Shown piece by piece: positions 5,898-21,584 of a stretch of DNA of 34,729 nt. The first letter of the stretch is position 1; each line of letters begins with the position of its first letter. This stretch comes from Desulfobacteraceae bacterium (lineage in GTDB: Bacteria > Desulfobacterota > Desulfobacteria > Desulfobacterales > ETH-SRB1). The position numbers and the translations under genes are program-made. The stretch covers positions 1 to 34,729 of the forward strand of contig JABZFQ010000077.1 of assembly GCA_014237365.1 (NCBI GenBank). Direction: 5' to 3'. The notes beneath the pieces are model-generated. The model worked only from the letters and a program-made list of their open reading frames with translations. It ran no database searches and was not told the origin of the DNA.

Positions 5898-7148
5898 TTG
5901 ATTTGCAAGAGCAATAATTCGGGTAAAAACATTCCAATAGCTGTAACGGGTATTGGAATGATTTGTCCTCTTGGGATAACGGCTCCCAAATCCTGGGAAA
6001 ATATGCTGCAAGGCAGATCAGGGATACGCAGAATAACCAAGTTCGATGCCTGTGAATGCGCCACCCGAATTGGAGGGCAACTTCCGGAAGAATATTTTGT
6101 GCTGGAAAAAAAAAAGACTTCAAAAAGAATGTTCAAACAGACCGTTCAGACGACTAGAATTATCCGATTGTGTTCTCATGAAGCCTTTAAAGACAGCAAT
6201 ATAGCATTGGATAAGATAGACCCAAACAGATGCGGGGTAATCATTGGCACAAGTGGCTCTAGTGTGCGCGGTCCTCATGATAAAGGCGGACATGGTGCTG
6301 AACGGTTCAAAATAATACGGGAAATGATTAATGCGCTTCCGGCATGGATAAGTTTAGATTACGGATTCAAAGGGCCAAACTTTACTCTTTCAGCGGCTTG
6401 TGCGTCAGGGTCCTATGCAATTGCAAAGGCATGTGATCTAATCAAAAGGAAAGAACTTGATATTGCTATTGCTGGTGGAGTCGACACTCTCTTGACCAAA
6501 AATAACACTATGCGTGGCAATTTTATGAAAGTGCTCTCGGAAAAAAATGATGAACCTGAAAAGGCGATGAGGCCTTTTGATAGAAAAAGAGATGGATGGG
6601 TAATTTCCGATGGGGGTTGTGCAGTTGTTCTTGAATCTTATGAACACGCTATAAAGAGAAATGCCAGAGTTTACGCGTGGGTTGTAGGACATGCAATGTC
6701 ATCGGAATGTTATAGTTTGTATTCTCCTGTCCCATACGGGGAAGGCATGGTTCAAACTATAGAAATGGCTTTGGCAGACGCAAATATTTCCAGGCAAAGG
6801 ATCGGATATGCTAATGCAAATGGGACTTCAACGGTAGTTAATGACTTTTGCGAAACCATGGCTATAAAAAAAGTTTTTGGTAAGCACGCATATAATATGT
6901 TTGTAAGTTCGCAAAAATCCATGCTCGGCCATATGGTTGGAGGGTCCAGCGCTATAGAGTTTGCCATAACTGCGTTAATCTTGAAAACTCAGAAAATCCC
7001 ACCCACTATAAACTATGAATTTCCGGACCCCAAATGCGACCTGAATTATGTTCCGAATAAGATGGTCGACGTCAATGATCTTGAAGTCGCTATCAACAAT
7101 TCTTTTGGGTTTGGAGGACACAATTGTGTCATTGTTATGACAAGATAA
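5898..7148 (+). CDS. FabF-type ketosynthase homologue with His-to-Asn change (KS2)
   Basis: Ketosynthase fold of 416 aa. The nucleophile Cys168 (SAACASGSY) and second His345 (KSMLGHMVGG) are present. The first catalytic His is Asn308: the motif reads YANANGTSTVVND where KS1 has YINAHGTSTLHND, with codon AAT for CAT. In ketosynthases this His helps decarboxylate the malonyl extender; its loss is known from non-elongating KS0 domains of trans-AT polyketide synthases. Here it suggests acyl transfer, chain gating or a non-decarboxylative coupling rather than elongation. TTG start directly after the ACP stop, with GAAGGAGAGA ahead. Close to KS1 in sequence, and possibly its partner in a heterodimer. 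Confidence 0.92.
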   Translation: MICKSNNSGKNIPIAVTGIGMICPLGITAPKSWENMLQGRSGIRRITKFDACECATRIGGQLPEEYFVLEKKKTSKRMFKQTVQTTRIIRLCSHEAFKDSNIALDKIDPNRCGVIIGTSGSSVRGPHDKGGHGAERFKIIREMINALPAWISLDYGFKGPNFTLSAACASGSYAIAKACDLIKRKELDIAIAGGVDTLLTKNNTMRGNFMKVLSEKNDEPEKAMRPFDRKRDGWVISDGGCAVVLESYEHAIKRNARVYAWVVGHAMSSECYSLYSPVPYGEGMVQTIEMALADANISRQRIGYANANGTSTVVNDFCETMAIKKVFGKHAYNMFVSSQKSMLGHMVGGSSAIEFAITALILKTQKIPPTINYEFPDPKCDLNYVPNKMVDVNDLEVAINNSFGFGGHNCVIVMTR

Positions 7149-7159
7149 GGATTACTTCT

Positions 7160-7846
7160 ATGCCTCTTATTCAAATGAAAAAGGTCACAAAAGATTATCG
7201 ATTGGGAGAAACAATAGTACATGCTCTAAGAGGGATCACTATTGAAATTGATGTTGGAGAATTTGTTGCGGTATGGGGCCCGTCAGGATCAGGCAAAACA
7301 ACTTTTTTAAATCTGATTGGTGCTATTGATGAACCTACTTCCGGATACTTTAGTTTCAATGAACGGGAAATTTCAGGGCTCTCTGATGATGAGAAGTCGG
7401 ATTTGCGTAACAAATCAATAGGTTTCATATTCCAGAATTTTAACTTGATTCCGGTTTTAACTGCTTTAGAAAACGTTATGCTGCCGTTACAAATACAAAG
7501 TTTATCAAATGCTGAAGCCAATCAGAGATCCATGTATAGACTGGAACAGGTAGGTCTTTCCGACTTTGTTAAACATAGACCTGATAAACTGTCAGGGGGT
7601 CAACGACAACGAGTATGCATTTCCAGGGCTTTGGTTACAAATCCTTCGCTGGTGATCGCAGATGAGCCTACGGCAAATCTGGATTCAGATACGGCCATGA
7701 AAATTCTTGAACTGATGAGAGATTTAAACAACAATGAAAAGACAACCTTTATCTTTTCTACTCATGACCAGAGGTTACTTGGCAAAATGAATCGGCTTGT
7801 TCGTATGGTAGATGGTGTGATTATAAATGAAGAGGATCATGTATGA
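7160..7846 (+). CDS. ABC transporter ATP-binding protein, LolD/MacB type
   Basis: ATPase subunit of 228 aa powering the permease encoded next. Visible motifs: Walker A GPSGSGKTT (40-48), Q-loop FQNFNLIP, signature LSGGQRQR (144-151), Walker B LVIADEPT (164-171), D-loop NLDSD and H-loop His202 (STHD). Such subunits pair with four-helix permeases that extract lipids or lipoproteins or drive tripartite efflux. I chose ATG 7160 (MPLIQMKKV) because the family starts there; it follows an AGG at 7148-7150 and starts 12 bases after KS2 ends. It overlaps the permease start by ATGA, so the two are coupled. Context suggests export of the cluster product. Confidence 0.95.
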   Translation: MPLIQMKKVTKDYRLGETIVHALRGITIEIDVGEFVAVWGPSGSGKTTFLNLIGAIDEPTSGYFSFNEREISGLSDDEKSDLRNKSIGFIFQNFNLIPVLTALENVMLPLQIQSLSNAEANQRSMYRLEQVGLSDFVKHRPDKLSGGQRQRVCISRALVTNPSLVIADEPTANLDSDTAMKILELMRDLNNNEKTTFIFSTHDQRLLGKMNRLVRMVDGVIINEEDHV

Positions 7847-9090
7847 CAGCCTGGATTAAGATTGGATTGAGGAACATCGTCAAGAATCTACGCCGTTCAG
7901 TCATTACTGCGTTGGCTATTGCTTTAGGCTTTGCTGCTGTAAACCTTTTTGCCGGGTTTACCAACTACATGTACACGGGAAACCGCGATATAGCGATTTA
8001 CGGAAAATGCGGCGGGCATCTAACGATTTTCAGGAAAGATTTTTTAGAAAAAGGTCGGTTGAATCCGGCTCAATACCTGCTGTCTCCTGAGGAAATTAGA
8101 GATGTCAATGCAATATGCCAGGATAACCCACACGTAATGCTGGTGACACCACAATTAAGAATAACCGGGCTCGCCAGCAATGGCAGCATTTCAACCATTT
8201 TTATTGCCCAGGGGATTGTCCCATCAGCAAAACGTGTGTTTTTTAGCAGAATGAATGCACCGAAAATCGGCAAAATATTTGAGGGCCGGGAACTGGAGAA
8301 TGATAAAAGCTACGGTGTAGCTATGACTAAAGGCTTGGCTCGCCTGCTTGATTTGAAAGTAGGTTCCTATGCTGTAGCTTTTACTAATACAATATACGGC
8401 CAAATGAATGCCCTTGATATGGAGGTTTTTCAATTATTAGATGCCGCTTCTGATGAAATGAATGACAAAATAATGCAGGTGCCACTTGCTTTTGCCCGGA
8501 CGCTTTATGATACGGATGGTGCTGATAAATTGGCTATACTTCTTGACGATACTAAATATACCGAATCTATTCGGGATCAATTGCAGACGGCCTTTTCGCA
8601 AAGAGGACTGGACCTGGAGGCCAAAACATGGGAAGAAATGAGTGAATGGTATAGAAAAGTTAAAATCATGTTTGACGTAATCTTTGCCTTTTTGTTTAGT
8701 ATTGTTTTTATCATTGTGGTAATGAGCGTAATAAATACTATGAGCATGGTCGTTGTGGAAAGGACCAGAGAGATTGGGACTTTGAGGGCTTTGGGCCTCA
8801 GGCGCAGAGGAGTTATGTCTTTATTTGCAGTTGAGACCAGTCTGCTTGGTGTTTTTGGCACAATCGGAGGTCTTTTTTTAACCTTCATTGGTTGGTGTGC
8901 CGTCGATGTGATCAAACCAACGTGGATTCCTCCAGGCATATCAAGACGTATGGTAATAAGCATTGAGTTTGTTCCCGAATTTATGCTATACAGTTTTATA
9001 TTTTTAATTTTGCTTTGTTTGATAGCTTCTCTTATCCCTGCCAAACGCGCGGCAGGACAAAATGTTGTGGATGCCTTAGGTCATGTATAG
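7843..9090 (+). CDS. ABC transporter permease, FtsX/MacB/LolE family
   Basis: Inner-membrane subunit of 415 aa. One membrane segment near the N-terminus (about 18-38) is followed by a large periplasmic domain and three C-terminal segments (around IFAFLFSIVFIIVVMSVIN, LLGVFGTIGGLFLTFIGW and YSFIFLILLCLIASLIPA), the usual LolC/E-MacB topology. ERTREIGTLRALGLRRRGV is the coupling-helix region of FtsX-type permeases. Its ATG overlaps the stop of the ATPase gene. The LolA-like gene follows 15 bases later, so the trio looks like a dedicated lipid-export path from the inner membrane to a periplasmic carrier. Only one permease gene is present, so the transporter would be a homodimer. Confidence 0.93.
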   Translation: MTAWIKIGLRNIVKNLRRSVITALAIALGFAAVNLFAGFTNYMYTGNRDIAIYGKCGGHLTIFRKDFLEKGRLNPAQYLLSPEEIRDVNAICQDNPHVMLVTPQLRITGLASNGSISTIFIAQGIVPSAKRVFFSRMNAPKIGKIFEGRELENDKSYGVAMTKGLARLLDLKVGSYAVAFTNTIYGQMNALDMEVFQLLDAASDEMNDKIMQVPLAFARTLYDTDGADKLAILLDDTKYTESIRDQLQTAFSQRGLDLEAKTWEEMSEWYRKVKIMFDVIFAFLFSIVFIIVVMSVINTMSMVVVERTREIGTLRALGLRRRGVMSLFAVETSLLGVFGTIGGLFLTFIGWCAVDVIKPTWIPPGISRRMVISIEFVPEFMLYSFIFLILLCLIASLIPAKRAAGQNVVDALGHV

Positions 9091-9105
9091 GATGAGGAAA
9101 AGAAT

Positions 9106-9858
9106 ATGATGAGAAATTGCTTGATCAGTGCTATGATAGTATTGGTAATCAATTTTTGGAGTATACATTACTCCTATGCTGAGCTGATCTCTAAAGAAAT
9201 TCTCCACCGCGCTGATGAGTCAAGGGGTAATTTAGAGGGAGTTAAATGGAGAGTATGTATCAATTCAATTGAGAGTGATCGTCAACAAAAACGAAGTCTC
9301 AATGTGCAAGCAAGGGCTTATGACTTTCTCGGCAGTTTAATTTCGCCTCCTAAGGTAAAAGGACAAAAATTGCTGATGCTTGATCACAGTATGTGGTTTG
9401 TCAAACCCGGTTTGAGAAAATCAGTGCCGGTTTCTCCGAGACAAAAGTTGGTGGGAGGAGCTTCCTACGGAGATATTGCGGCTACCAATTATGCAAATGA
9501 TTATGAACCAACCCCACTAGATGATGAAGCGGTAGATGATGAACTATGTTATGTATTTAATCTTAAGGCGATACACAAAAACGCTACGTACAATTTTATA
9601 AAATATTGGATATCTAAAAATCGGTTAGTGGGAGTAAAGGCTGAATTTTTTACCGTTTCAGGTAAGATGTTTAAAATGGCCAGGTTTGAATACGAAAATG
9701 TTGTAAAGTTAAGAGATGAGCCACGGCCGTTTATTTCGAAAATGGTAATTACTGACGCGTTCATAAATAGTAACGTAACAACTCTGAATTTCAGCGAGCC
9801 TATTCTTGTAAAAGTCCCTGATTCAACATTTAATCTGAATTTACTGATGATGAGGTAA
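9106..9858 (+). CDS. LolA-like outer-membrane lipoprotein-sorting protein
   Basis: 250-aa periplasmic protein with an N-terminal signal peptide (about 1-25, ending YSYA). The block MWFVKPGLRKSVPVSPRQKL followed by GGASYGDIAATNYANDY is characteristic of the LolA-like family annotated as outer membrane lipoprotein-sorting protein, which carries lipids or lipoproteins across the periplasm in an open beta-barrel cradle. GAGGAAAAG precedes the ATG. It is positioned after the ABC pair and before an outer-membrane barrel, giving an inner membrane - periplasm - outer membrane route. Relatives occur in RND/MMPL and aryl polyene loci. The cargo is inferred to be the cluster lipid; a lipoprotein cargo cannot be excluded. 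Confidence 0.88.
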   Translation: MMRNCLISAMIVLVINFWSIHYSYAELISKEILHRADESRGNLEGVKWRVCINSIESDRQQKRSLNVQARAYDFLGSLISPPKVKGQKLLMLDHSMWFVKPGLRKSVPVSPRQKLVGGASYGDIAATNYANDYEPTPLDDEAVDDELCYVFNLKAIHKNATYNFIKYWISKNRLVGVKAEFFTVSGKMFKMARFEYENVVKLRDEPRPFISKMVITDAFINSNVTTLNFSEPILVKVPDSTFNLNLLMMR

Positions 9859-9859
9859 T

Positions 9860-9965
9860 TATAGACTTTCAGATAATTAATTTCACAAGGCTATAAGGAG
9901 GAAAGCGTATTAGTTATACGTCAACGACTGATAACGCAGTGAAATTATTTATCTGAAAATCTATA
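9860..9965. repeat. 106-bp hairpin repeat, complete copy
   Basis: The left arm TATAGACTTTCAGATAATTA to 9886 pairs with 9939-9965 (25 of 27 positions by eye). The loop contains CGTATTAGTTATACG and an AAGGAGG with no start codon at proper spacing. The right part recurs at 5423-5488 and the tip recurs at 12378-12395. It fills the gap between the LolA-like gene and the outer-membrane barrel gene. Confidence 0.72.
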
Positions 9966-9973
9966 TTATAAAT

Positions 9974-11347
9974 ATGCACAAAAATCACTATACAAGAAAG
10001 TTAATTATCTTATTTCCACTTTCATGTATTTTGTTTTTTGTGCCTGCTCTGGCTTTTTCTTCGACTATTTCTTATGCGAACGCTGAATCTAATTCTTTTA
10101 TTTATGATATAGCAAAAGAGGCAAAAGATGGTTTTAATTACCTGTTTAAAACGTTGATTTTTGGAACAACAATGAAACCATCTGATTCCACGCAAAATCC
10201 AAACAATGACTTTCTGGAACTGCCGAGATATACATTTGATTTTGAATTGAGGCCAGACCTTTTCCTGAATTTTCGAAGGGTAACTTTAATAGCTAAACCA
10301 AGAATAAATGTGGAACGTCAATATTGGAACGACGGAAATCGTGATGGGGATAGTTCCACAAAAGATGATTGCTATGTTAATGAATGGATAGCTAGGCTAA
10401 GATTGACTGAAGGCTTATTTGCTTCTTATGGAAGAGAAAACCTTCAGTGGGGAGCCTCCTTCTTATTGTCTCCATCCAATCCTTTTTTTCGGAACAACGG
10501 TCAATCAAATCCTAAATGTGAAGTTCCAGGAATGGATTTTGCGCGTTTTGTGTGGATTCCCAATTCTTCCTGTACAGCCTCACTTATTGCTAATACAGAT
10601 GAGGGACGACAGGAATTTGTCTTAGACGATTTTGAACCGACATATGCTTTAAAGTTAGACTATAACTCATACCAAAAAAACTTTAGTGTGATTGCATCTT
10701 ATAAGGAAGAAGATAGGTTTCAAATAGGCGCTTTTGCCAAATGGACGGTTTCTGATGCTCTAATGTTACATGGAGAAACATCTGTAACTCAAGGAACCAA
10801 CGCTCTATATCCGGTGGAAATCATAACTCCATCAGGATCATCAATTCAAATGATTCCGGTCAAAAAAGACGAAACCAGCCTTGAAGGATTATTGCTTTTA
10901 GGGGGATCCTACACGTTGGAAGCAGGGCCTACTTTGACGCTCGAATATGTATTTAACAGCACTGGATATGACGAAAAAGAAGCAGAACTTTATTATGAAC
11001 TCCGGGATGAAGCTTCCCAGGCTTTCTATTCTCCATATTCCGGAGTGGCAGAGATAGCGCAGCTATTATTAATCCAAACTCTTGATACCAAACTGAAGCT
11101 ACTCAGAAAAAACTATTTTATGCTTCAATATCAACACTCTCAAATACGGGATGTCCTTAATCTAATTTTTCGGTATACCTATAATATAAACGATTATTCA
11201 AGTCACTTCGTATCTATTGTGGAGTATGATGTTGGCGACCATACCCAGCTTTTTTTAATTGGCAATCAGAATTTTGGATCTAAAGATACTGAATTTCGTT
11301 CAATTGTAGAATATAGCTGGATGTTTGGATTAGAATATACTTTTTGA
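9974..11347 (+). CDS. outer-membrane beta-barrel protein of unknown family
   Basis: 457 aa with a clear signal peptide (KLIILFPLSCILFFVPALAF). The rest alternates polar and hydrophobic residues in strand-like stretches and ends with LEYTF, the terminal Phe expected for BAM-inserted barrels. The segment GRENLQWGASFLLSPSNPFF resembles porin-like proteins of the DUF1302 or alginate-export kind, but I cannot assign a family firmly. It follows the ABC and LolA-like genes, so it may place the product in, or pass it through, the outer membrane. The ATG at 9974 lies 8 bases after the hairpin repeat and has no good Shine-Dalgarno. Confidence 0.75.
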   Translation: MHKNHYTRKLIILFPLSCILFFVPALAFSSTISYANAESNSFIYDIAKEAKDGFNYLFKTLIFGTTMKPSDSTQNPNNDFLELPRYTFDFELRPDLFLNFRRVTLIAKPRINVERQYWNDGNRDGDSSTKDDCYVNEWIARLRLTEGLFASYGRENLQWGASFLLSPSNPFFRNNGQSNPKCEVPGMDFARFVWIPNSSCTASLIANTDEGRQEFVLDDFEPTYALKLDYNSYQKNFSVIASYKEEDRFQIGAFAKWTVSDALMLHGETSVTQGTNALYPVEIITPSGSSIQMIPVKKDETSLEGLLLLGGSYTLEAGPTLTLEYVFNSTGYDEKEAELYYELRDEASQAFYSPYSGVAEIAQLLLIQTLDTKLKLLRKNYFMLQYQHSQIRDVLNLIFRYTYNINDYSSHFVSIVEYDVGDHTQLFLIGNQNFGSKDTEFRSIVEYSWMFGLEYTF

Positions 11348-11402
11348 AAATCTACACCCTGCCGGAGCCTGGTTGTAAAGTAAAGCAGTTTAAGGTTTTT
11401 GT

Positions 11403-12365
11403 ATGAAAAGAATACTAGTTATAAATTACTCACAAACAGGTCAGTTGACAAGTATCGTTAAATCCTTAATATCTCCCCTGAGCAAAAATAAGACTATCGA
11501 AGTTGTCTGGGAAGAATTGGAACCAATTAAGCCATATCCTTTTCCCTGGCCCTTTATTAAATTTTTGGATGTATTTCCTGAATCTGTGTTGATGGATGCG
11601 CCAGAAATGAAGTCCTTTTCATTTGACCCGAACAAAAAGTTTGACTTGATCATATTGTCCTACCAAGTATGGTACCTGTCTCCTTCATTACCTGTTACTG
11701 GCTTTCTTAAATCACCAGAAGCAAGAGTTATGAAGGAGACACCGGTTATTACTGTTATCGGTTGTAGAGATATGTGGTTGATTGCGCAGGAAAAAGTCAA
11801 AAAATGTTTGGAACAAATTAGCGCAAAATTCATTGATAATGTGGTCTTTCTCGATCAGGGTAAAAAAGGCGCCACATTCATAACTACGCCCCGATGGCTG
11901 TTGACAGGTAAAAAAGAAAAATTTTGGAAAATATTTCCCGCAGCCGGTGTAAGCGAAAAGGATATTATGAATGCCGATAGTTTTGGAAATGCAATCTTAA
12001 AAGCTTTGGAGAGTGGAGAAATAGATAGGGGGAATTCTATTCTTAAAGGGTTGGGAGCAGTCAAAGTTAATCCCAATAATATTAAATTCGAACAAGCGGC
12101 TCATTGGCATTTTCTTGTTTGGGCAAAAATTATACAAGCGATCGGAAAACAGGGCCAAATGAAAAGGCTGCCATTTTTGATTTTATTCATTGTTTTTCTC
12201 TCAGGTATGATTTTGATATCATTTCCATTTGCTATTATCTTTAATATATTTATCAATCCTTTTAGAAATGAAGAAATTGCAAAAAAGGTAGAATATTTCG
12301 AACAACCTTCCGGGTCTTCAACAGAAAGATTAGAATCACTGAGCGCAATGAAAGATATAAAATGA
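11403..12365 (+). CDS. DarA-like dialkylresorcinol-condensing (aromatase) family protein
   Basis: 320 aa. The N-terminus has a flavodoxin-like nucleotide-binding start (MKRILVINYSQTGQLTSIVK), then PYPFPWPFIKFLDVFPESV and LIILSYQVWYLSPSLPVTGF, which I recognise as the family annotated dialkylresorcinol condensing enzyme. In dialkylresorcinol and flexirubin pathways DarA acts after the ketosynthase DarB and is thought to oxidise a cyclohexanedione intermediate to the aromatic ring. A hydrophobic segment around residues 253-285 suggests membrane attachment. It is the last gene of the left plus-strand arm and faces the sulfotransferase operon. Together with the KAS III-like gene and ACP it hints at a resorcinol product. 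The family call rests on remembered motifs and is moderately sure. Confidence 0.72.
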   Translation: MKRILVINYSQTGQLTSIVKSLISPLSKNKTIEVVWEELEPIKPYPFPWPFIKFLDVFPESVLMDAPEMKSFSFDPNKKFDLIILSYQVWYLSPSLPVTGFLKSPEARVMKETPVITVIGCRDMWLIAQEKVKKCLEQISAKFIDNVVFLDQGKKGATFITTPRWLLTGKKEKFWKIFPAAGVSEKDIMNADSFGNAILKALESGEIDRGNSILKGLGAVKVNPNNIKFEQAAHWHFLVWAKIIQAIGKQGQMKRLPFLILFIVFLSGMILISFPFAIIFNIFINPFRNEEIAKKVEYFEQPSGSSTERLESLSAMKDIK

Positions 12366-12377
12366 AAGACATAAATT

Positions 12378-12395
12378 GTTATCTGAAAGTCTATA
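12378..12395. repeat. solo end of the GAAAGTCTATA repeat
   Basis: TGTTATCTGAAAGTCTATA matches the right tip of the 5423-5488 and 9860-9965 repeats. It lies in the 58-base gap between convergent genes. Nothing else of the element is visible here. Confidence 0.5.
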
Positions 12396-12400
12396 TTTGC

Positions 12401-12422
12401 CCGAACGAAAATCTCGGTTTTT
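12401..12422 (+). terminator. possible weak terminator between convergent genes
   Basis: CCGA (12401-12404) can pair with TCGG (12414-12417), followed by five T. The stem is only four pairs, so this is a weak candidate for ending the 2049-12365 transcript. Confidence 0.25.
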
Positions 12423-12423
12423 A

Positions 12424-13512
12424 TCATAAGTAACCATATTTAAACATATTTTCGCGACAGATTGATTCAACAATATCAAAATTTCCGTAGACATTTTTGT
12501 GATGTATGATGCCTATCTGGCCGATCTTTTGCGAAAAAGCTATATTGTTTTTCTTGATTTCGGGAAGTTCACAAAACTCAAAAATCTTTAAGATCTCTTC
12601 TCCAGGATTTGAAAGAATATCCTCATAACGTACTTCATAGAAAGAGGGCAGATTGTTCTTATGTCTGTTGACAAATGAAATTGCATCATTCCATAGATTT
12701 GCTGTAGTTCGAATATCTTTCGGGCCATATCTTTTGACGTTCTCAGATAGGTTTGGCAAACGAGGATAAGGAATGAAAACCTTATTATTATATATTGGAA
12801 GGCGCGTTTTAGTTCTAATCTTAGCAAGCTGGTCTGCATTAAGATTGTACAATTTAATGAGAGAGTTTGCACTGGTTCGAGCGTCACGCACCAGATGTAT
12901 GAATTTGGCATCAGGAAACATATCTTTAAGGAGGAGGATACGTGGCAGCAGGGCTGGATTCTTGGTGAAAAACCGTGAAGGTTTGCCTTCAAAACACCAG
13001 ATAATTTTGCAAATGGATGTATAGATATTTTCTAGTTCTAGAGAAGAAAAGGCCTCAATCTTATGTTCAACATAATTTAGGGAGTAAGGATCATCTTTAA
13101 GCCACTCACCCCAAAAAGCAATGCCTTCTGATGGACTTCCTGAATCTACTTCTATACTATCTTGCAGATACCGTTCTCCCCTGGCATTGAGGTTGAACTG
13201 CTTTCGAAAATATTCTGCAGCACAAAAACATGTCCGAAATAGATGCATGGTATTGGTTATGTAAGCAATATCCGGGTGAGTACAAAGGATGTCTTGTAAC
13301 ATTGATGAGCCAGAGCGTGGAAGAGCGATCACAAAAATGGGTCGATACAGATGTATATCTCGGATGTCTACATTTAAAATATGATCCTCATACCATTTCA
13401 GGAATCCTTCAAGTGGCTTGGGTGGAAGTTCTGGTATTACGAATTGTCTTTCAAAGCATGATCTTAGAAGTACCCTGGATAGTAGATTTGAATATTCAAC
13501 CTTTTGTTTCAT
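12424..13512 (-). CDS. sulfotransferase family protein (1)
   Basis: 362-aa cytoplasmic enzyme expected to move a sulfuryl group from PAPS to a hydroxyl. The 5'-phosphosulfate loop is VIALPRSGSSML (about 61-72), and the 3'-phosphate site includes FIHLVRDARTSANSL with Arg209. These match the Sulfotransfer_3 type family. It is the last gene of a three-gene minus-strand block with the methyltransferase and a second sulfotransferase, with a 52-base gap upstream. The acceptor is probably a hydroxyl on the cluster lipid, but that is inference. PAPS would come from sulfate activation; ATP sulfurylase is abundant in sulfate reducers, although APS kinase is not in the window. Confidence 0.9.
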   Translation of the reverse strand: MKQKVEYSNLLSRVLLRSCFERQFVIPELPPKPLEGFLKWYEDHILNVDIRDIHLYRPIFVIALPRSGSSMLQDILCTHPDIAYITNTMHLFRTCFCAAEYFRKQFNLNARGERYLQDSIEVDSGSPSEGIAFWGEWLKDDPYSLNYVEHKIEAFSSLELENIYTSICKIIWCFEGKPSRFFTKNPALLPRILLLKDMFPDAKFIHLVRDARTSANSLIKLYNLNADQLAKIRTKTRLPIYNNKVFIPYPRLPNLSENVKRYGPKDIRTTANLWNDAISFVNRHKNNLPSFYEVRYEDILSNPGEEILKIFEFCELPEIKKNNIAFSQKIGQIGIIHHKNVYGNFDIVESICRENMFKYGYL

Positions 13513-13564
13513 ATCGCATCTCTTTTAGGAAGGTGGACTTCTCTACTCATATTTCTAACTTTTT

Positions 13565-14590
13565 CTACTTCCATCCTTCGAAAAGAACAGTTGGAGATAT
13601 TAATCGAAATGGTTTTACCATAATACGGTTGAAACCAGCCGTCTTGAACAAATGTCGCATTTCTTCACGATGGTAGCATTTACCTCCAAGAGTAAAGTAA
13701 TTCAGCGAGATGAGGCTGACAAATTTATCTTGCAATCTGCCTATACCCATAAACTGATCTACTACTATTATTACACCTTGAGGACTCAGTGCTTCATGAA
13801 TACGCGATATTAACTTTCGATTTTGCTTAAAGTTGAAGAGATGAACCATGTTGACAAGAAGCACCGCATCCCAGCCAGTACCTATATTATCATTTAAAGC
13901 ATCGCCAACTCGAAGTTCGAGTGCTTCAGGATTACCTTTCTGTTTGAGAATGCGCTGAGCTGTGGCTATTGGTCCTGCAAAATCAAGAATAGTAGCTTTT
14001 AAGCCGGGGAACTTTTGAACCAGAGCACGACTATACTCTCCGTGAGCTCCTCCAATATCCAGCAGTCGTTTGGCGTCATTAGGCAACTTTACTTTTTTGA
14101 GGAATTCTGGGATAAGTTGTCGCGACATCTCCCTCATCGCTTTGGTATAGATTTCCTGCCGTTCAGAGTGAACTGAAACCTCATGCTTATGGAAATCCAC
14201 AACTGGTTTGCCTGTTCTTAAGGGAACTTCTAGATCACTAAGACGATTCCAAGTATGAAGTTGCAGCCTGAGGAAATTCGCTATTCCCCGTCTTGGATCG
14301 ATGATCCATCTTTTAACCCACCGACCATTCTTATAGCGATCCTTTCGTTTTTCAAGATATCCGCTTTTCTCAAGGGCAATTAGGAGAACATCAGCACCTT
14401 CTCTAGAGATTCCAATACGTTGAGCAACCTCGTCGGAACCGAGACCCTTTCCGCTATTCTCCAGTGCTGTGAAAAGGCCAAGCTTATTTGCTTCTAACAG
14501 AGCACGGGTACGACAGATCTGTGGCTGTGTGTCTAAAAGTGGTACAGAAACAAGATTTAGTTTTTTTAAAATAGCGATAAGAAAATCCAT
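13565..14590 (-). CDS. SAM-dependent O-methyltransferase (acetylserotonin/caffeate OMT-like)
   Basis: 341 aa. An N-terminal winged-helix dimerisation region (about 20-100: RALLEANKLGLFTAL, VAQRIGISREGADVLLIAL) precedes a Rossmann SAM domain with motif I LLDIGGAHGEYS (176-187). His250 (VLLVNMVHLF) sits where plant and bacterial OMTs of this family have the catalytic base (NVLHDW-type). Members methylate phenolic hydroxyls of polyketides and phenylpropanoids. Its place between two sulfotransferases suggests that the pathway product has several hydroxyls, some methylated and some sulfated. The ATG is preceded by GGGGTTGAGAA, a weak ribosome site. Confidence 0.9.
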   Translation of the reverse strand: MDFLIAILKKLNLVSVPLLDTQPQICRTRALLEANKLGLFTALENSGKGLGSDEVAQRIGISREGADVLLIALEKSGYLEKRKDRYKNGRWVKRWIIDPRRGIANFLRLQLHTWNRLSDLEVPLRTGKPVVDFHKHEVSVHSERQEIYTKAMREMSRQLIPEFLKKVKLPNDAKRLLDIGGAHGEYSRALVQKFPGLKATILDFAGPIATAQRILKQKGNPEALELRVGDALNDNIGTGWDAVLLVNMVHLFNFKQNRKLISRIHEALSPQGVIIVVDQFMGIGRLQDKFVSLISLNYFTLGGKCYHREEMRHLFKTAGFNRIMVKPFRLISPTVLFEGWK

Positions 14591-14660
14591 GATTTCTCAA
14601 CCCCATAAAAACTATAAATTCATTTCACCTATTGGACTTATTAAGAGAGGTGGACACGGA

Positions 14661-15851
14661 TTATTTTTTAAATCCATATTTATCAAAAATGAAAGATAAG
14701 TCCCTTGCAATTCTTTCTTTTGACAAACCAAACTCTTTCAACTCCAGATTTCGATGTTTTCGGCGATAACTGCTTTGCGTTTTAATTTGTTCCTGTATTT
14801 TTTTGCGCAACTCCTGACTTATTTCAAGTCCGGTAAACTCAAGAATTGTTTGGATTGCTTTCCCTAAATCATTTTTCAGCAAATCATAAGAGAGGGTCAT
14901 AAATTGTGAGGGATTAAAAATTCCTTTGCTAATCAGGTTCTCAATATATTGATAGAACTGGACATCATAATGGTATCGTCGCTCAAAGTAACGCTGCAAT
15001 CGGTTAGCCGGAATCTTTTTTAGCCCCCATTGAAAATCCAACACATTTCTATCAAGTGAAAGATGGGATGAAATGGTTTCATATGGTGATCTAACCAGAT
15101 AAATAATCTTGGCATCGGGAAAAGCCTCCAGCAGAGATTGAATTCGAAATGCGGAATGATTCATTTTAGTTAAAATCTGTTTTTTGCCCAGATAATAAAT
15201 CTGACGTTGGAGACATTGCTTGAAAAATTGAATAGTCTTTTGACGTACATTCTTAGGTTGATTGTCTGAATAAACAAGATCCATGAAGTCCTTATTGCCA
15301 AGCCCAAGCGAGGTCTGTATCGCTATAAACTGCGTGTTAAAAATATGATAAAATAACAATTCTTCTTCTTCAATTGAACCAAGAGTCATTTTATGGCCAA
15401 TTGATTTTGGGTAGTAAAAAGTATTTTTCCCCTTCTTAATCCTTGACATTATAAAAGGAGCTAAGATTTTTCGGGCGACAAGAGAAGGAAAAAGAAGCTG
15501 CCAAAACTCAAAAACAGCAAATTCCTGACTCTGGGTTAAAAGACGATGTAAAAAGGTTGTCCCGGACCTGGGATGGCCAATGATAAAAATGGGCTTTTCA
15601 ATTTTTATCCGACGATATTCGGGGAAAAATATATTATCCAAAAAAAGTGTAATAGAGTTAAAAAGTAACATAACAGGCCTGATAAAGAGAAAGCGCAGAA
15701 ACTCCTTATTAAAGCCAAAGGTTGACCAAGATGCTGTCAGTATTCTTAAATATATTTTTAATTTGAATAAAAACACGTCATTAACTCTTTGAGAATGAAT
15801 AGATTTTTTTGACGTTTGATTAGGTTGCTCAAAAAGGGGCAAAAAAAGCAA
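14661..15851 (-). CDS. sulfotransferase family protein (2)
   Basis: Up to 396 aa. The PAPS-binding loop is PIFIIGHPRSGTTFLHRLL (about 87-105); the 3'-phosphate region is IIYLVRSPYETISSHLSL with Arg254. It is clearly different from the first sulfotransferase, carrying a longer N-terminal region with hydrophobic stretches (FLRFLFIRPVMLLFNSITLF) that may attach it to the membrane. The start is uncertain: the longest frame begins with TTG at 15851 with no Shine-Dalgarno, and a later start is possible. It is the first gene of the minus-strand block, so its promoter should lie in 15852-16000, between divergent genes. Acceptor unknown. Confidence 0.85.
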   Translation of the reverse strand: MLFLPLFEQPNQTSKKSIHSQRVNDVFLFKLKIYLRILTASWSTFGFNKEFLRFLFIRPVMLLFNSITLFLDNIFFPEYRRIKIEKPIFIIGHPRSGTTFLHRLLTQSQEFAVFEFWQLLFPSLVARKILAPFIMSRIKKGKNTFYYPKSIGHKMTLGSIEEEELLFYHIFNTQFIAIQTSLGLGNKDFMDLVYSDNQPKNVRQKTIQFFKQCLQRQIYYLGKKQILTKMNHSAFRIQSLLEAFPDAKIIYLVRSPYETISSHLSLDRNVLDFQWGLKKIPANRLQRYFERRYHYDVQFYQYIENLISKGIFNPSQFMTLSYDLLKNDLGKAIQTILEFTGLEISQELRKKIQEQIKTQSSYRRKHRNLELKEFGLSKERIARDLSFIFDKYGFKK

Positions 15852-16006
15852 AATAAAATTTTAATATAATGGCCAGGAAGTCTTGTCAATGATAAAAGAA
15901 GCCCGGCAATTTTCATTATGGAATTGCTGGTTAAAGTTTAAGCTGCAAGATCAAACCGAGGTCTGTAAATCTATGTTTGAGTCTGATTTTGGGTTACACA
16001 AAACTC

Positions 16007-16041
16007 TTGACACTACCGTTGTTATTGGCCAATATTATATA
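16007..16041 (+). promoter_or_regulatory. candidate promoter upstream of the FabI-like gene
   Basis: A perfect TTGACA at 16007-16012 is followed by an A+T-rich AATATTATATAA stretch at 16031-16042. The best -10 match at 18-base spacing is weak. It lies in the 240-base divergent gap 15852-16091 and would serve the right plus-strand arm. Confidence 0.4.
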
Positions 16042-16091
16042 AATAGTGACTTGCAGAAACGCTTAGAACACATATAGAAAGGAAAAATCAT

Positions 16092-16895
16092 ATGGGTTTA
16101 TTGGATGGAAAGAATGCATTGATCTGTGGGGTTGCAAATAAGAAAAGTATTGCCTGGGGTATAGCACAGGCTCTCCATGCTCATGGAGCACGGCTTGGTT
16201 TCACATGTCTTGAAAACAATGTCCACCGCTTGAATAAACTGGCTTCTCAAGTCAATTCCGACATCATTATTCCCTGTGATGTCCGGAAGGAGAATGACAT
16301 TGCGCATGCTTTAAATAAAGTAAGTGCGGTGTTTGACGGAAAGCTCGATATCCTTATTCATGCTATTGCGTATGCTGATATAAACGATCTTGGTGGAGAA
16401 TTTATTAGCATATCAAAGTCAGGTTGGAGTCTGGCCTTAGAAGTCAGCGCCTATTCTTTGATAGCCTTCGCTAGATACGCCCGCCCATTGATGAATGCAA
16501 CAGGAGGAGGCTCAATTATCACCTTAACTTTTTCCGGAGGAGAATCGGTGACACCTGGTTACAATATCATGGGCATAGCCAAGGCTGCTCTAAACATGTC
16601 TGTCCGTTACCTTGCCTATGACCTTGGACCAGAAAATATCAGGATAAATGCTATTTCAGCCGGTCCTATTTCGACCATATCTTCTATGGCAGTGGAAAAG
16701 TTTGACATTTTTTTGCGTATGGTTGAAGAATGTTCTCCACTGTTACGCAATATTACTTTGGAAGATCTGGGTGGAACGGCAGTCTATTTGGCTTCTCACC
16801 TTTCAAATTCTGTCACAGGAACGGTAATATACGTAGATTCCGGAACAAATATTTTGGACCCTCCGTCTATAGCGCATCGCAGATTTAAAAAATAG
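16092..16895 (+). CDS. enoyl-ACP reductase (NADH), FabI-like
   Basis: Short-chain dehydrogenase of 267 aa with FabI hallmarks: the N-terminus LLDGKNALICGVANKKSIAW, PCDVRKENDI, and the catalytic YNIMGIAK with Tyr157 and Lys164. The upstream Tyr usually found in the FabI TLSYLG motif is Phe147 (TLTFSGG), a difference from housekeeping FabI. Expected reaction: reduction of a trans-2-enoyl thioester. ATG with AGAAAGGAAAAA ahead. It heads the right arm of the cluster and is followed by a mobile repeat inserted three bases after its stop codon. It could be a specialised paralogue or the cell's only FabI; the context favours a specialised one. Confidence 0.88.
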   Translation: MGLLDGKNALICGVANKKSIAWGIAQALHAHGARLGFTCLENNVHRLNKLASQVNSDIIIPCDVRKENDIAHALNKVSAVFDGKLDILIHAIAYADINDLGGEFISISKSGWSLALEVSAYSLIAFARYARPLMNATGGGSIITLTFSGGESVTPGYNIMGIAKAALNMSVRYLAYDLGPENIRINAISAGPISTISSMAVEKFDIFLRMVEECSPLLRNITLEDLGGTAVYLASHLSNSVTGTVIYVDSGTNILDPPSIAHRRFKK

Positions 16896-16898
16896 TAA

Positions 16899-17078
16899 GG
16901 AACGTGGACGAATTAACTTCCCCAACTATGCATCACAGATTCAGGCCACCTTTGCCCGATCTCAAATCACAAAAATATTGAAATAGCTCGCTATTCCATC
17001 AACTTTTGTGATCTGAGACCGAACAAATCTGACCCAAATCTGTGCGCCTACTTGTGGAAGTTAATTCGTCCACGTTCC
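16899..17078 (-). mobile_element. GGAACG-family MITE, full-length copy A
   Basis: Ends GGAACGTGGACGAATTAAC and GTTAATTCGTCCACGTTCC are perfect inverted repeats, extending to about 23 bases. Target duplication TAA at 16896-16898 and 17079-17081. The interior (CCCGATCTCAAATCACAAAAAT ... TTTTGTGATCTGAGACCGAA) makes a second inner hairpin. The whole unit is the reverse complement of the copy at 25377-25557, so it is placed on the minus strand relative to that copy. No open reading frame. Confidence 0.85.
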
Positions 17079-17166
17079 TAAGGACTCGGTTAAAAATTAC
17101 GTTTGAAGATCTATCTTGTAATTGACTTTTTATCAATAAAAACTATATTTAAAAGGAGTATAAAGG

Positions 17167-18375
17167 GTGATGCATGTTGGTATTGTTGGTACCGGAAAAA
17201 TGGGGACCGCCTTATTAAAACTTCTTAAGTCAACACCATATCATATTAATGTCCTGGCTAGCGGTGCGGATAAAGCGGAAAAGAGCCGGCGAAAATATTT
17301 TAAAAAAATTGAGCGGGAATTCAAACAAGGGGGGATTTCTGAAAAAAAGTACAATAATATCAAAGCAATTCGAAAATTTACTCATAAAATAGAGGATTTG
17401 GCCGGGTGTCAGCTCGTTGTTGAGTCTATTACTGAGGATTTTGAAGCAAAAACATCATTATTCCGAAAGATAGAATCAGTGGTGGATAAAGATGCGATTC
17501 TGGCAACCAATACCTCTAGTATTCCCATCTCGGATTTGGCCGGGAAACTGCGCTATAATAATCGGTTTTGCGGATTACATTTTTTTCACCCTGTTTTTAT
17601 GATGAATTTAGTGGAAATAATAAGAAAAGCCGACACGCAGCCTCGACTAGTTGATTTGATGAAGGACTTTTCTCGACAAATCGGCAAAAAACCGATCGTT
17701 GTTTTTGATGCTCCCGGCTCTGTTCTGAATCTTATTCTTTTTTATTATTATCTGGAGGCTTTTTATATATTGGAGTCAGGGCTTGCTCTTCCATCGGAAA
17801 TTGATAAACTGGCAAAACAATATTTTTATACAGGGCCATGTGAATCAGTGGACACTATTGGCATTGATTTGTTTCTCACCGGCCTGAAAATTCAATCAAG
17901 ACCGGACAGCATCTGTCCTGTTCGATGGACGGATGACCCTTTGCAACAAATAGACTCAGAAAAAAGCGGTGGCAGAGAAGGATTTTATGTTCCTCATTTG
18001 TTTCGCAAATTGATTGCAGAAAACCGTCGTGAAACCGGTGTAGCCAAAAAAGTTTATGATTTTGAAGATAACCCGGAGTTTTATATTGATGAAACAGGCA
18101 TGAGTTCCAGAGTAACTCCTGATACAAGTAAGAAAGAAAAAGATTTAATTGTCAAACGTCTTCTTTACGCTATCTTTAATGGTGCAATTGATGCTGTACA
18201 AAAGGGCAAGTCTTCTATTAAAGAACTTGATATCGGCTTGAAAGAAGTGTTGTGGATGGATCAAGGACCGTTTTCAATGATGAAAAAAATCGGCAGAGAA
18301 AAAGTCCAGGAAAATTTTGATTATTTGATAAGTAATGTGGGAAAACGGTTCACCCAAACAGCATTATCTTTGTAA
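17167..18375 (+). CDS. 3-hydroxyacyl-CoA dehydrogenase
   Basis: 402 aa, NAD-binding Rossmann start VGIVGTGKMGTALL, then ATNTSSIPISDLA (catalytic Ser), LHFFHPVFMMNLVEII (catalytic His and Glu) and FDAPGSVLN with the conserved Asn. This is the HACDH plan of fatty-acid beta-oxidation enzymes, with the C-terminal dimerisation half present (about 185-400). It would interconvert 3-oxoacyl and 3-hydroxyacyl thioesters; no FabG-type ketoreductase is in the cluster, so it may fill that step in the reductive direction. GTG 17167 and ATG 17170 are both possible starts, with AAAGGAG at 17152-17158. It is 38 bases before KS3. Confidence 0.9.
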   Translation: MMHVGIVGTGKMGTALLKLLKSTPYHINVLASGADKAEKSRRKYFKKIEREFKQGGISEKKYNNIKAIRKFTHKIEDLAGCQLVVESITEDFEAKTSLFRKIESVVDKDAILATNTSSIPISDLAGKLRYNNRFCGLHFFHPVFMMNLVEIIRKADTQPRLVDLMKDFSRQIGKKPIVVFDAPGSVLNLILFYYYLEAFYILESGLALPSEIDKLAKQYFYTGPCESVDTIGIDLFLTGLKIQSRPDSICPVRWTDDPLQQIDSEKSGGREGFYVPHLFRKLIAENRRETGVAKKVYDFEDNPEFYIDETGMSSRVTPDTSKKEKDLIVKRLLYAIFNGAIDAVQKGKSSIKELDIGLKEVLWMDQGPFSMMKKIGREKVQENFDYLISNVGKRFTQTALSL

Positions 18376-18412
18376 TTGCATATTTTTTTGCGGAAAGGAC
18401 GAAAGGGAAGTC

Positions 18413-19618
18413 ATGAAAAGAAGAGTAGTGGTGACAGGATTAAATATGATCACTCCACTCGGCCTTAATCTAGAAACTAGCTGGGATAATTTTGTAGCCG
18501 GCAAAAACGGTATCAGTTTGATTTCCCTATTTGATACTTCGAATCACATGACTAAAATTGCAGGGGAACTTTCCAGTGATTTTGAAAATTATTCAAAAAA
18601 ATCATGCAAGAAATACCTATCCAAGAAAATGGGTAGAGCGACCAAAATATGCTATGTATGCGCAAAAGAGGCTGTTGAGAGCAGTGGAATAGATTTTAAG
18701 AACTATGATGCAATGCGATGCAGTGTCATTTTAGGTGCTAATGATACTGGTCATTCAAGAATTTACCATAATAATAAAAACTGGCTCATGAAAACCATGG
18801 TCAATGGGATGGCCGCATGGATATCAATAACCTATAAAATAGAAGGTCCGTGTTTTACAATTGCGACGGCTTGTTCATCTTCTGCTTATGCAATTGGTTA
18901 TGGATATGACCTCATAAGATCTAATATGGCTGATGTGGTTATAGTCGGAGGCGCAGGTTCAATTGTCAATCCCGAACACCTTGAGGGATTTAATGAAGTA
19001 TATGCCCTTTCTACTTCCAGTGACATCCCTGAGAAAGCAAGCCGTCCTTTTTCTATTGACAGAGATGGTTTTGTTCTTGGAGAAGGGGCTGGAATATTAA
19101 TTCTTGAGGATATAAATACGGCTAAAAAACGGGGGGCATATATATATGCAGAAATGATTGGGCATGCTTTAACCAGTGAAGCGTATAACATTATGTCGCC
19201 AAAACGGGATGGTAGCGGGATGGCAAAAACGATGGATCTGGCATTGAAAAAATCTAAAATAAAGAAAGAAGAGGTAGATTACATTAACGCGCACGGCACT
19301 TCCACACCGCATAATGATAGAGTAGAGACATTGGCGATAAAGAAAGTTTTCGGGAAACATGCCTGCGATATACCTGTTTCATCGTCAAAATCAATGATCG
19401 GTCACACAGCAAGCGCATGTGGAGGGATTGAGGCTGTTCTTACAATAATGAGCATAAAAAACGGGATGATAACGCCCACAATTAATTATCATCCGGATCC
19501 GGAATTGGATTTGGATTATGTTCCCAATATAGCAAGAAAACAGAAGATTGATGTAGCGATTTCCAATTCTTTTGCTTTTGGTGGTCATAACGCCACACTG
19601 GTTTTTAAAAAATATTAA
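18413..19618 (+). CDS. beta-ketoacyl-ACP synthase, FabF type (KS3)
   Basis: 401-aa condensing enzyme with full catalytic triad: Cys154 (ATACSSSAY), His294 (INAHGTSTPHND) and His331 (KSMIGHTASACGG). It keeps the PDPELDLDYVPN and FAFGGHNAT blocks shared with KS1 and KS2 but is more distant from them than they are from each other. I chose ATG 18413 (MKRRVVVTGLN) because it aligns with FabF starts and has GAAAGGGAAG ahead; an upstream in-frame GTG at 18335 would overlap the dehydrogenase. It is followed 17 bases later by the acyltransferase-like gene, a usual partner. Confidence 0.93.
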   Translation: MKRRVVVTGLNMITPLGLNLETSWDNFVAGKNGISLISLFDTSNHMTKIAGELSSDFENYSKKSCKKYLSKKMGRATKICYVCAKEAVESSGIDFKNYDAMRCSVILGANDTGHSRIYHNNKNWLMKTMVNGMAAWISITYKIEGPCFTIATACSSSAYAIGYGYDLIRSNMADVVIVGGAGSIVNPEHLEGFNEVYALSTSSDIPEKASRPFSIDRDGFVLGEGAGILILEDINTAKKRGAYIYAEMIGHALTSEAYNIMSPKRDGSGMAKTMDLALKKSKIKKEEVDYINAHGTSTPHNDRVETLAIKKVFGKHACDIPVSSSKSMIGHTASACGGIEAVLTIMSIKNGMITPTINYHPDPELDLDYVPNIARKQKIDVAISNSFAFGGHNATLVFKKY

Positions 19619-19635
19619 TCCGTAATTAAGAGACA

Positions 19636-20559
19636 ATGAAAAAAGAGATTGCAGCTTTTATTTTCCCTGCTTTTGGCAAACCATATACAGGTTTTAAAAA
19701 TAAAGGGCTTGATGAATATCAGGAACGCTTGCGGGACTATTTGTCAACGGCATCGCAACTGGTTTCGATTAACAATATAAAATTTGAACGGGCATGTAAT
19801 GGTATTATTGAAGATGATCTTCACGCCCATTACTCCTGTTACATTAATTCCTGTATTATCTCTGATATATTGAAGGATAGAAATATACATCCTCAATATG
19901 CAGTTCCATTTAGTATGGGCTTATATGCGGCTCTTTATTATACATCTTCTGTTTCATTTGAAAATTTATTGCTTTTTATGCATAATCAATTAGCATCTGC
20001 ATTAAATACTCTTAATGATGTTCAATATGGAATGGTATCTATTGTTGGTTTGCCTTTTCATGAGGTTGAAGAATTGATTAGAAACAAGGAAATGGAGGTA
20101 GAAGTTGTTGATGCTGTCAATGAACTTGTTCAAGTAGTGGCAGGCAAGCGCGTAGAGCTCGAAAAATTAATGCTCATCGCAAAAGAAAATGGCAGTTCTC
20201 ATGCCAGAATGTTGCCCGTGTCATTGCCTTATCATTCAAGCTACATGAAAAAAATAAAAACAATAGTTGAAGATTTGTTGCTTCAGATTGAGATACTAAC
20301 TCCTGAATATCCCATTATTTCGAATAGTAATCAAAAAGTCTTAACAACAAAGCAAGAAATAAGAAACGAATTAGCTAACAATATTTCTGGTACAGTGCAT
20401 TGGTTAAATACTATGAATAAAATGCATGAACTTGGTATCAATGTGCTAATTGAATGTGGACTCAGCAATGCTTTATGCAAATTGGTCAAACTGTTTAATA
20501 GTGATTTTCAGGTTTACCATCCCAGAAAATTTTCTAAATTATTTCGTTCCATTGCCTGA
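19636..20559 (+). CDS. acyltransferase-like protein (FabD fold), altered malonyl-binding site
   Basis: 307 aa resembling malonyl-CoA:ACP transacylase. The nucleophile motif, usually GHSLG, reads PFSMGLYAALY with Ser93; the catalytic His is His200 in MLPVSLPYHSSYM. The region that normally carries the Arg binding the malonyl carboxylate (RGxxM block before GAMAAI) is FENLLLFMHNQLASALNTLN with no Arg between residues 108 and 132. This suggests a non-malonyl acyl group, or a hydrolase/editing role. It directly follows KS3 in the same transcript. ATG start with AAGAGAC ahead. The fold call is good; the substrate is open. Confidence 0.82.
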   Translation: MKKEIAAFIFPAFGKPYTGFKNKGLDEYQERLRDYLSTASQLVSINNIKFERACNGIIEDDLHAHYSCYINSCIISDILKDRNIHPQYAVPFSMGLYAALYYTSSVSFENLLLFMHNQLASALNTLNDVQYGMVSIVGLPFHEVEELIRNKEMEVEVVDAVNELVQVVAGKRVELEKLMLIAKENGSSHARMLPVSLPYHSSYMKKIKTIVEDLLLQIEILTPEYPIISNSNQKVLTTKQEIRNELANNISGTVHWLNTMNKMHELGINVLIECGLSNALCKLVKLFNSDFQVYHPRKFSKLFRSIA

Positions 20560-20620
20560 AAAAAGTGCAGCTTAGGGCTCAGAGCTGCTTTCCTCTGCAA
20601 TATCAAGTTTGAAACAACCT

Positions 20621-21334
20621 ATGGAAAATTCTCATCTTATTCGCATATGGAATAAAGGTTCCATTGCCTATATCCAACTCAATCGTCCTGAGAAGGCTAA
20701 TGCCTATAATGAGGCAATGCTCGACACCTTGGCCGGCACCTTGGAGAATATAGCAATCGATGCCGAGGTACGTGTGTTAATTATTTCCGGTGCAGGCAAT
20801 CAATCTTTTTGTGCTGGAGCGGATATTCATGAGATCCGTCAAAGAAATTACGCTGATGCATTGAATTTAAAAAGCGCAAAAGTATTTGATAAAATAGCTC
20901 TTTTCCCCCAAATTACTCTTGCGGCCATTAATGGAGCTGCTGTTGGAGGAGGATTAGAGCTTGCTCTGGCATGCGATATCCGGATAGCTGTTGAAAATGC
21001 AACCTTTTTTTTTCCCGAAACAAAACTTGGATTAATACCGGCAGCCGGCGGAACCCGCAGATTGCCTAAGATCGTTGGCATTCCGCGCGCTAAGGAGCTC
21101 ATTCTCGGAGGGCGGGTTTGGAATGTAAATGATGCCATGCGCTGGGGACTGGTCAACGAAGTCGTACAGTGTGAAGATCTATTGGCTCAAGCTCAAAAAT
21201 GGGGTGAGGAAATCGCTCAAAGGGATCCGGTAGCGTTACAATTAGCCAAAAAGTCACTTGATTTCCAATCAGAAAATGGATTGGCTTCAAGTTTTGAACT
21301 CGTTTCCGAGGCATTGTTGTATCAGTTAAAATGA
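20621..21334 (+). CDS. enoyl-CoA hydratase/isomerase family protein (crotonase 2)
   Basis: About 237 aa, the most canonical of the three crotonases here. It has oxyanion-hole strands CAGADI and GAAVGGGLELALACD and both hydratase acids, Glu113 and Glu133 (FPETKLGLIPAAGGTRRL). Expected to hydrate 2-enoyl thioesters or dehydrate 3-hydroxyacyl ones, working with the 17167 dehydrogenase and the FabI-like reductase. The start is ATG 20621 or in-frame TTG 20609; neither has a clear ribosome site. It may equally be a DpgB/DpgD-type partner of the type III synthase encoded next, 250 bases downstream. Confidence 0.88.
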   Translation: MENSHLIRIWNKGSIAYIQLNRPEKANAYNEAMLDTLAGTLENIAIDAEVRVLIISGAGNQSFCAGADIHEIRQRNYADALNLKSAKVFDKIALFPQITLAAINGAAVGGGLELALACDIRIAVENATFFFPETKLGLIPAAGGTRRLPKIVGIPRAKELILGGRVWNVNDAMRWGLVNEVVQCEDLLAQAQKWGEEIAQRDPVALQLAKKSLDFQSENGLASSFELVSEALLYQLK

Positions 21335-21540: not shown

Positions 21541-21584
21541 CTTAGATTTACCAATCTAATTTTCCTTTGCAATGAGGTTACATA

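Follow-up and report, generated by a model that had tools for sequence, protein, structure and literature searches.

The question here is what two PAPS (3'-phosphoadenosine 5'-phosphosulfate)-type sulfotransferases and a methyltransferase do among the lipid genes of a Desulfobacteraceae bacterium (GenBank assembly GCA_014237365.1). The genes are found on contig JABZFQ010000077.1, in a stretch of 34,729 nucleotides that is referred to as a whole as the window. This trio of genes probably serves as a tailoring unit for an aryl (resorcinol-type) polyketide lipid, the predicted product of the laterally acquired island in which it lies.

The sulfotransferase and methyltransferase trio

The trio is composed of three intact open reading frames (ORFs) on the minus strand, encoding proteins of 362, 341, and 396 amino acids:

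12424..13512, minus strand, ST1, PAPS-type sulfotransferase (PF13469) of an orphan clade
13565..14590, minus strand, methyltransferase with an N-terminal dimerisation domain (PF00891 and PF08100), O-methylation likely
14661..15851, minus strand, ST2, PAPS-type sulfotransferase (PF13469), with the TTG at 15851 probably upstream of the true start

Transcription proceeds from ST2 through the methyltransferase to ST1, and the gaps of 70 and then 52 bases make the three genes compatible with one transcript. The genes flanking the trio (11403-12365 and 16092-16895) are both on the plus strand. Promoter and terminator scans of 12200-16200 stayed at the level of shuffled sequence (11 found vs 12.4 expected, and 4 vs 2.5, respectively). 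The ST2 start at TTG 15851 is doubtful because a homologue starts approximately 30 residues later.

Both sulfotransferases exceed the Pfam cut-offs for Sulfotransfer_3 (PF13469; 96.5 bits for ST1 and 99.7 bits for ST2, cut-off 27) and Sulfotransfer_1 (PF00685; 46.9 and 59.9 bits, cut-off 22). When aligned, the two proteins are 20% identical and are thus two different enzymes and not the outcome of a recent duplication. The coordinates, the Pfam scores, and this identity agree with a preliminary description of the locus, in which two differing PAPS sulfotransferases flanked a methyltransferase on the minus strand between plus-strand neighbours.

ST1 has the motif PRSGSS at residue 65, followed by R209 and S217, and ST2 has PRSGTT at residue 94, followed by R254 and S262. 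When 14 sulfotransferases of this genome and related genomes are aligned, ST1 and ST2 included, the Arg and Gly of the loop and the Arg...Ser pair (+8) are invariant in all 14. We take the Arg and Gly to form the 5'-phosphosulfate loop and the Arg...Ser pair to be the 3'-phosphate site. Compared to solved structures, a profile of the cluster sulfotransferases matches 2zq5 (E = 3.5e-32), tyrosyl-protein sulfotransferases, the CurM sulfotransferase (5.5e-13), and retinol dehydratase (4e-9); ST1 alone matches the CurM sulfotransferase at 0.011. The concern that these could be P-loop proteins without sulfotransferase features is answered by the invariant residues and the solved sulfotransferases matched. 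By family, ST1 and ST2 are PAPS-dependent sulfotransferases with their residues intact, and sulfate transfer is predicted. An AlphaFold model of ST1 built without an alignment had a mean predicted local distance difference test (pLDDT) score of 34.9 and was set aside.

The middle protein exceeds the cut-offs for Methyltransf_2 (PF00891; 80.5 bits, cut-off 22.3) and Dimerisation (PF08100; 32.4 bits, cut-off 25.6). Its best solved relatives in the Protein Data Bank (PDB) include SibL, the methylthiohydroxybutyrate (MTHB) methyltransferase DSYB, MfnG, and CalO6. These relatives span different acceptor types, so O-, C-, and S-methylation are indistinguishable for 13565-14590 by this comparison. 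The domains fit the "phenol-type O-methyltransferase" named in the preliminary description, for which O-methylation is likely but unproven. Against FlxJ of flexirubin clusters (NF053543), the protein scores 57.3 bits, under the cut-off of 560.

An island inserted between uvrB and uvrC

The trio lies within an island of 20 genes of polyketide/fatty-acid type (2049-23457, trio included), in line with its earlier description as embedded in a cluster. Besides the trio, the insert contains lipid/polyketide-type genes only.

1700..23480, no strand, inserted island with approximate limits, uvrB to uvrC, empty site in G171 and G267

The uvrB (97% protein identity) and uvrC (87%) matches of G171 and G267, two genomes of the same genus, are adjacent and 140 and 69 bases apart, against ~21.8 kb between the two genes in the window. 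Seven stretches were compared for an empty site, which is seen in those of G171 and G267. A third, from G023 (another genus of the same family), has 3 kb between uvrB and uvrC, within which no cluster gene is matched, and a uvrB match is missing in the other four. Moreover, at the thresholds used, 7 same-genus and 9 other same-family genomes lack matches to ST1, ST2, and the DarB-like ketosynthase gene of the island. The empty sites in relatives and the lack of matches in same-family genomes point to lateral gain of the cluster, most simply as one unit. The window has no tRNA and no 11-mer shared by the two junctions was seen, so no mechanism of insertion is apparent.

The step in guanine-cytosine (GC) content near 26.9 kb (0.39 to 0.47) raised the possibility of a contig-joining artefact, which was rejected because uvrC, mdh, and a cyclase gene are consecutive in G267 too. 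The true start of uvrC (23473-25386) is probably near 23534, based on the sequence around the start of the gene in G171 and G267.

Gene content of the island

The island encodes three FabF-like ketosynthases, three crotonase-fold proteins, one acyl carrier protein (ACP), and one type III polyketide synthase (PKS). The genes other than the trio are as follows:

2049..3305, plus strand, KS1, FabF-like ketosynthase, retains Cys and both His, HGTST
3360..4472, plus strand, StlD/DarB-like ketosynthase III, under family cut-offs
4675..5436, plus strand, ECHa, crotonase-fold protein
5493..5897, plus strand, ACP, GGDSI
5898..7148, plus strand, KS2, FabF-like ketosynthase, Asn replaces the first catalytic His
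7124..7846, plus strand, LolD-like ATP-binding cassette (ABC) ATPase, 247.5 bits, below the cut-off of 307.75
7843..9090, plus strand, LolC/E-like FtsX permease
9106..9858, plus strand, LolA-like periplasmic lipid carrier, PF17131 at 101.8 bits
9974..11347, plus strand, probable outer-membrane beta-barrel, signal-peptide-like start, assigned by eye, no Pfam match
11403..12365, plus strand, DarA-like protein (tentative label), 50-52% homologues accompany the G132 and G208 clusters
16092..16895, plus strand, FabI-like enoyl reductase
17167..18375, plus strand, 3-hydroxyacyl-coenzyme A (CoA) dehydrogenase-like ketoreductase
18335..19618, plus strand, KS3, FabF-like ketosynthase, HGTST
19636..20559, plus strand, FabD/MdcH-like malonyltransferase
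20609..21334, plus strand, ECHb, crotonase-fold protein
21585..22667, plus strand, DpgA-type type III PKS (3,5-dihydroxyphenylacetyl-CoA synthase), NF042429, GMGCNAG site
22705..23457, plus strand, ECHc, crotonase-fold protein

The type III PKS passes the DpgA equivalog NF042429 at 426.1 bits (cut-off 425). The ketosynthase III at 3360..4472 falls below DarB membership, scoring 138.3 bits against NF005293 (cut-off 450) and 113.3 bits against NF053539 (cut-off 550), and its closest solved structure by profile is StlD (5gk2, 8.1e-28). The protein at 11403..12365, for which DarA-like is a tentative label, has no match to an NCBIfam family or to a PDB chain. Homologues of the barrel gene are found in G208 (53%) and G628 (48%). 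KS2 reads NANGTST where KS1 and KS3 read HGTST.

PAPS supply and sulfate metabolism

The dsrA gene of this genome (596.7 bits, cut-off 392.85) is consistent with sulfite/sulfate respiration. A DpgA-type type III PKS occurs here in a dsrA-bearing bacterium. On contig C25, a 592-amino acid protein combines PUA_2, ATP-sulfurylase, and APS_kinase domains. With this bifunctional ATP-sulfurylase/adenosine 5'-phosphosulfate (APS) kinase, the genome can make PAPS. The APS kinase (cysC) that the preliminary description proposed to look for is thus present as a domain of this protein; a second APS-kinase-like match, on C338, is weaker (68.4 bits).

At a threshold of E 1e-30 or better, APS kinase is found in 212 of the 291 genomes of the order, mostly without the cluster. 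Within the genus, it occurs in five of eight genomes including this one, and the other four (of seven) all lack the cluster. Given this wide presence in cluster-free genomes, an acquisition of the APS kinase on behalf of the cluster was rejected. The same distribution also bears on the metabolic proposal made earlier for the trio: dsrA and a PAPS source exist, but a dedicated branch from energy metabolism is not supported, with the kinase encoded outside of the cluster. Across the order, APS kinase accompanies ST2-like genes in 26/29 genomes vs 186/262 of the others (Fisher p = 0.045), a weak association that is uncorrected for relatedness.

Related clusters and the sulfotransferases linked to them

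The DarB-like gene is found at at least 66% identity in four of the 291 order genomes, namely this one (G000), G036, G132, and G208; the other 24 order genomes with a DarB-like match have 30% identity or less. Among 395 genomes of the phylum, this one apart, the DarB-like profile matches G628, G469, G609, G390, and, weakly, G636. A scan of genome contigs also identified a match at 53% in G669, a Chloroflexi metagenome-assembled genome (MAG). G390 and G636 have no cluster around the DarB-like gene and were left out, and eight cluster genomes remain.

A linked sulfotransferase is present in seven of these eight genomes, two of them weakly (G628 and G208). G132 has three cluster-linked sulfotransferases, one of which is an ST2 homologue (49%) located between KS3 and the DarB-like gene. 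The one sulfotransferase of G036 is 60 bp from KS1 and is the sole PF13469 gene found in that genome. In the single-contig genome G609, one sulfotransferase is ~9 kb from KS1, in an arm with a PapA-like acyltransferase, short-chain dehydrogenases/reductases (SDRs), a methyltransferase, and a FabI-like gene; the one in G469 is on a separate contig with the same arm. The weaker links are those of G628, where three sulfotransferases are on a separate contig alongside an SDR and a partial match to a methyltransferase, and G208, where 3.7 kb with housekeeping-type genes, named by eye, separates the sulfotransferase from the DarA-like and FabI genes.

In a tree of the sulfotransferases, ST2 groups with G132_STb and non-cluster relatives (set support 100/97). 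The commonest cluster type, another set, is composed of G132_STc, G628_STc, and the sulfotransferases of G609, G469, and G208, and a third set holds that of G036 and two of G628. The branch of ST1 is long, and its placement is unsure. ST1 and ST2 are therefore no fixed pair; some sulfotransferase is nearly constant, drawn from several separate clades. The preliminary description had asked if both sulfotransferases are always present in syntenic clusters, and they are not: the clusters differ in how many sulfotransferases they have and of which type.

ST1 has no close relative among the 291 order genomes, and neither does the methyltransferase, whose best match in the order is at 34%. For ST2, the G132 protein is the one in-cluster homologue. 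No common lipid context stood out among the neighbours of its non-cluster relatives. A plasmid search returned distant sulfotransferases only (best 29.5% for ST1 and 27% for ST2) and relatives of the DarA-like protein at 32%. This genome has a third, weak PF13469 match (G000:C47:17517-18062, 34.1 bits) in an 866-amino acid frame outside of the cluster.

Among nine genomes queried, DpgA was found only in G000, G132, and G669, with the relatives in G132 and G669 at 68-70%. The presence of an ST2-type sulfotransferase and DpgA together in G000 and G132 (n=2) hints at the DpgA-derived ring as the acceptor of ST2, against which G669 carries DpgA but zero PF13469 genes.

Proposed function of the trio

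In the proposed pathway, DpgA and its crotonase-fold helpers would convert malonyl-CoA to 3,5-dihydroxyphenylacetyl-CoA. The ketosynthases, ACP, malonyltransferase, ketoreductase, and enoyl reductase would extend this product, or would build chains that are condensed by the DarB/StlD-like ketosynthase. ST2 and ST1 would sulfate hydroxyls of the product from PAPS, at two acceptor sites or in two steps, and the methyltransferase would move a methyl from S-adenosylmethionine (SAM) to product hydroxyls. The LolDE/LolA-like proteins and the barrel would carry the resulting anionic lipid to the outer membrane. PAPS would be supplied by the bifunctional ATP-sulfurylase/APS kinase of the genome. From the gene content, we infer the substrate, the order and regiochemistry of these steps, the membrane destination, and a product shared by both sulfotransferases.

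Several observations weigh against this reading. The Chloroflexi MAG G669 has DpgA, DarB-like, FabI, and crotonase genes and no PF13469 gene anywhere, which means that the scaffold can do without sulfation. No counterpart of ST1 or of the methyltransferase was found in any related cluster, and the DpgA assignment clears its cut-off by only 1.1 bits. The orientation of the trio opposes that of the core operons, and separate regulation could be possible. Finally, PF00459, the CysQ/inositol-phosphatase superfamily, has 0 matches in this genome vs 14/14 control genomes. CysQ is the usual phosphatase of 3'-phosphoadenosine 5'-phosphate (PAP), and without a PF00459 protein, PAP must be cleared another way.

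The sulfotransferases could also act on a surface glycan, lipopolysaccharide, or another lipid and be only passengers of the island. PF13469 spans many acceptor types, and in the order, ST2 relatives (37-43%) mostly lie away from such clusters. However, no glycan gene was recognised in the insert, and several separate sulfotransferase clades recur beside related clusters, one of them inside the G132 core, which makes passengers rather unlikely. Alternatively, one or both enzymes could activate a beta-hydroxyl by sulfation, creating a leaving group for elimination and yielding an alkene with no stable sulfate ester. In the CurM sulfotransferase-thioesterase and in retinol dehydratase, sulfation precedes elimination. 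The cluster profile matches both of these enzymes, and hydroxyls are expected from the ketoreductase-like gene. Yet steroid and tyrosine sulfotransferases match in a similar range, so this likeness is unspecific. The window cluster is also without a thioesterase (a 4HBT thioesterase is seen in G628), and a methyltransferase between the two sulfotransferase genes suits decoration better. Activation for elimination is thus unlikely.

In caprazamycin biosynthesis, sulfate is carried by a transient shuttle, and here a sulfated type III PKS product could likewise hand its sulfate on via an arylsulfate sulfotransferase. A type III PKS and PAPS sulfotransferases do share this cluster, as they do in the cpz cluster according to one report (PMC12135136). 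No arylsulfate sulfotransferase domain was found in the window, though, and such a shuttle is highly improbable.

The tailoring of an aryl lipid by the trio is the reading that we retain, and a cluster for a sulfated, methylated aryl polyketide lipid, its product predicted from genes, is probably an unusual variant of known chemistry. If so, activated sulfate is channelled in some sulfate reducers to an anionic membrane lipid or pigment of resorcinol type, which would provide a mass-spectrometry marker for such organisms. The cluster sulfotransferases would represent unstudied clades with a predicted phenolic acceptor, and unrelated enzymes would have been recruited repeatedly to one finishing step. 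More tentatively, the clusters may represent a mobile island for outer-membrane aryl lipids in Desulfobacterota-like bacteria. Sulfation by sulfotransferases from unrelated clades would be its near-constant finish, producing a surface sulfatolipid from the activated-sulfate pool of respiration that is re-tailored as the island moves. Within open-licence PubMed Central (PMC) papers, the search listings gave no report of such a lipid or of a resorcinol, aryl-polyene, or polyketide-sulfotransferase cluster in sulfate reducers.

Comparison to known systems

DpgA-D make up the dihydroxyphenylglycine pathway of glycopeptide antibiotics. As in that pathway, the DpgA-type synthase of the island adjoins crotonase-fold proteins. 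Unlike it, the island has no recognised nonribosomal peptide synthetase (NRPS), DpgC-type oxygenase, or aminotransferase, its host is an anaerobe, and its product is probably a lipid.

The closest described precedent is the AdpST cluster of Streptomyces davaonensis. AdpST is a PAPS sulfotransferase whose gene adjoins that of a type III PKS, and it adds one or two sulfates to adipostatins, which are alkylresorcinols (PMC12135136). By this description, both clusters pair a PAPS sulfotransferase with a type III PKS, and a resorcinol-type phenol acceptor is expected here as well. AdpST is one enzyme sulfating twice, with a PAPS cassette in its operon, whereas the island has two unrelated sulfotransferases and a methyltransferase, and its PAPS source is elsewhere; no ATP sulfurylase, APS kinase, or AdpST-type cassette was found in the window. 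The DpgA-type type III PKS, the type II ketosynthases, and the Lol-like export genes also set the island apart from the AdpST cluster as described there.

Aryl-polyene clusters contain LolA genes and can share an organism with a dar operon, according to another report (PMC3949708). Like the DarA/DarB dialkylresorcinol, flexirubin, and aryl polyene clusters in that account, the island has DarB/StlD-like and FabF-like ketosynthases, an ACP, a LolA-like carrier, and a methyltransferase. It differs from them, as they are described, in that its DarB-like protein is below the cut-offs, DpgA replaces a hydroxybenzoate starter, and sulfotransferases and a LolDE-type ABC exporter are present.

The comparison extends to mycobacteria. 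There, sulfolipid-1 is produced with a polyketide, a sulfotransferase, a PapA-like acyltransferase, and an exporter. The island shares the polyketide, sulfotransferase, and exporter. It is unlike sulfolipid-1 in that no trehalose gene, Stf0, or MmpL was recognised and the window cluster has no PapA-like gene; PapA-like acyltransferases are found in G132, G469, and G609. In the related clusters, a Condensation/PapA_C acyltransferase is encoded near a sulfotransferase (L033 13922-15268 and L082 4971-6284), an arrangement that, in our view, recalls sulfolipid-type lipids.

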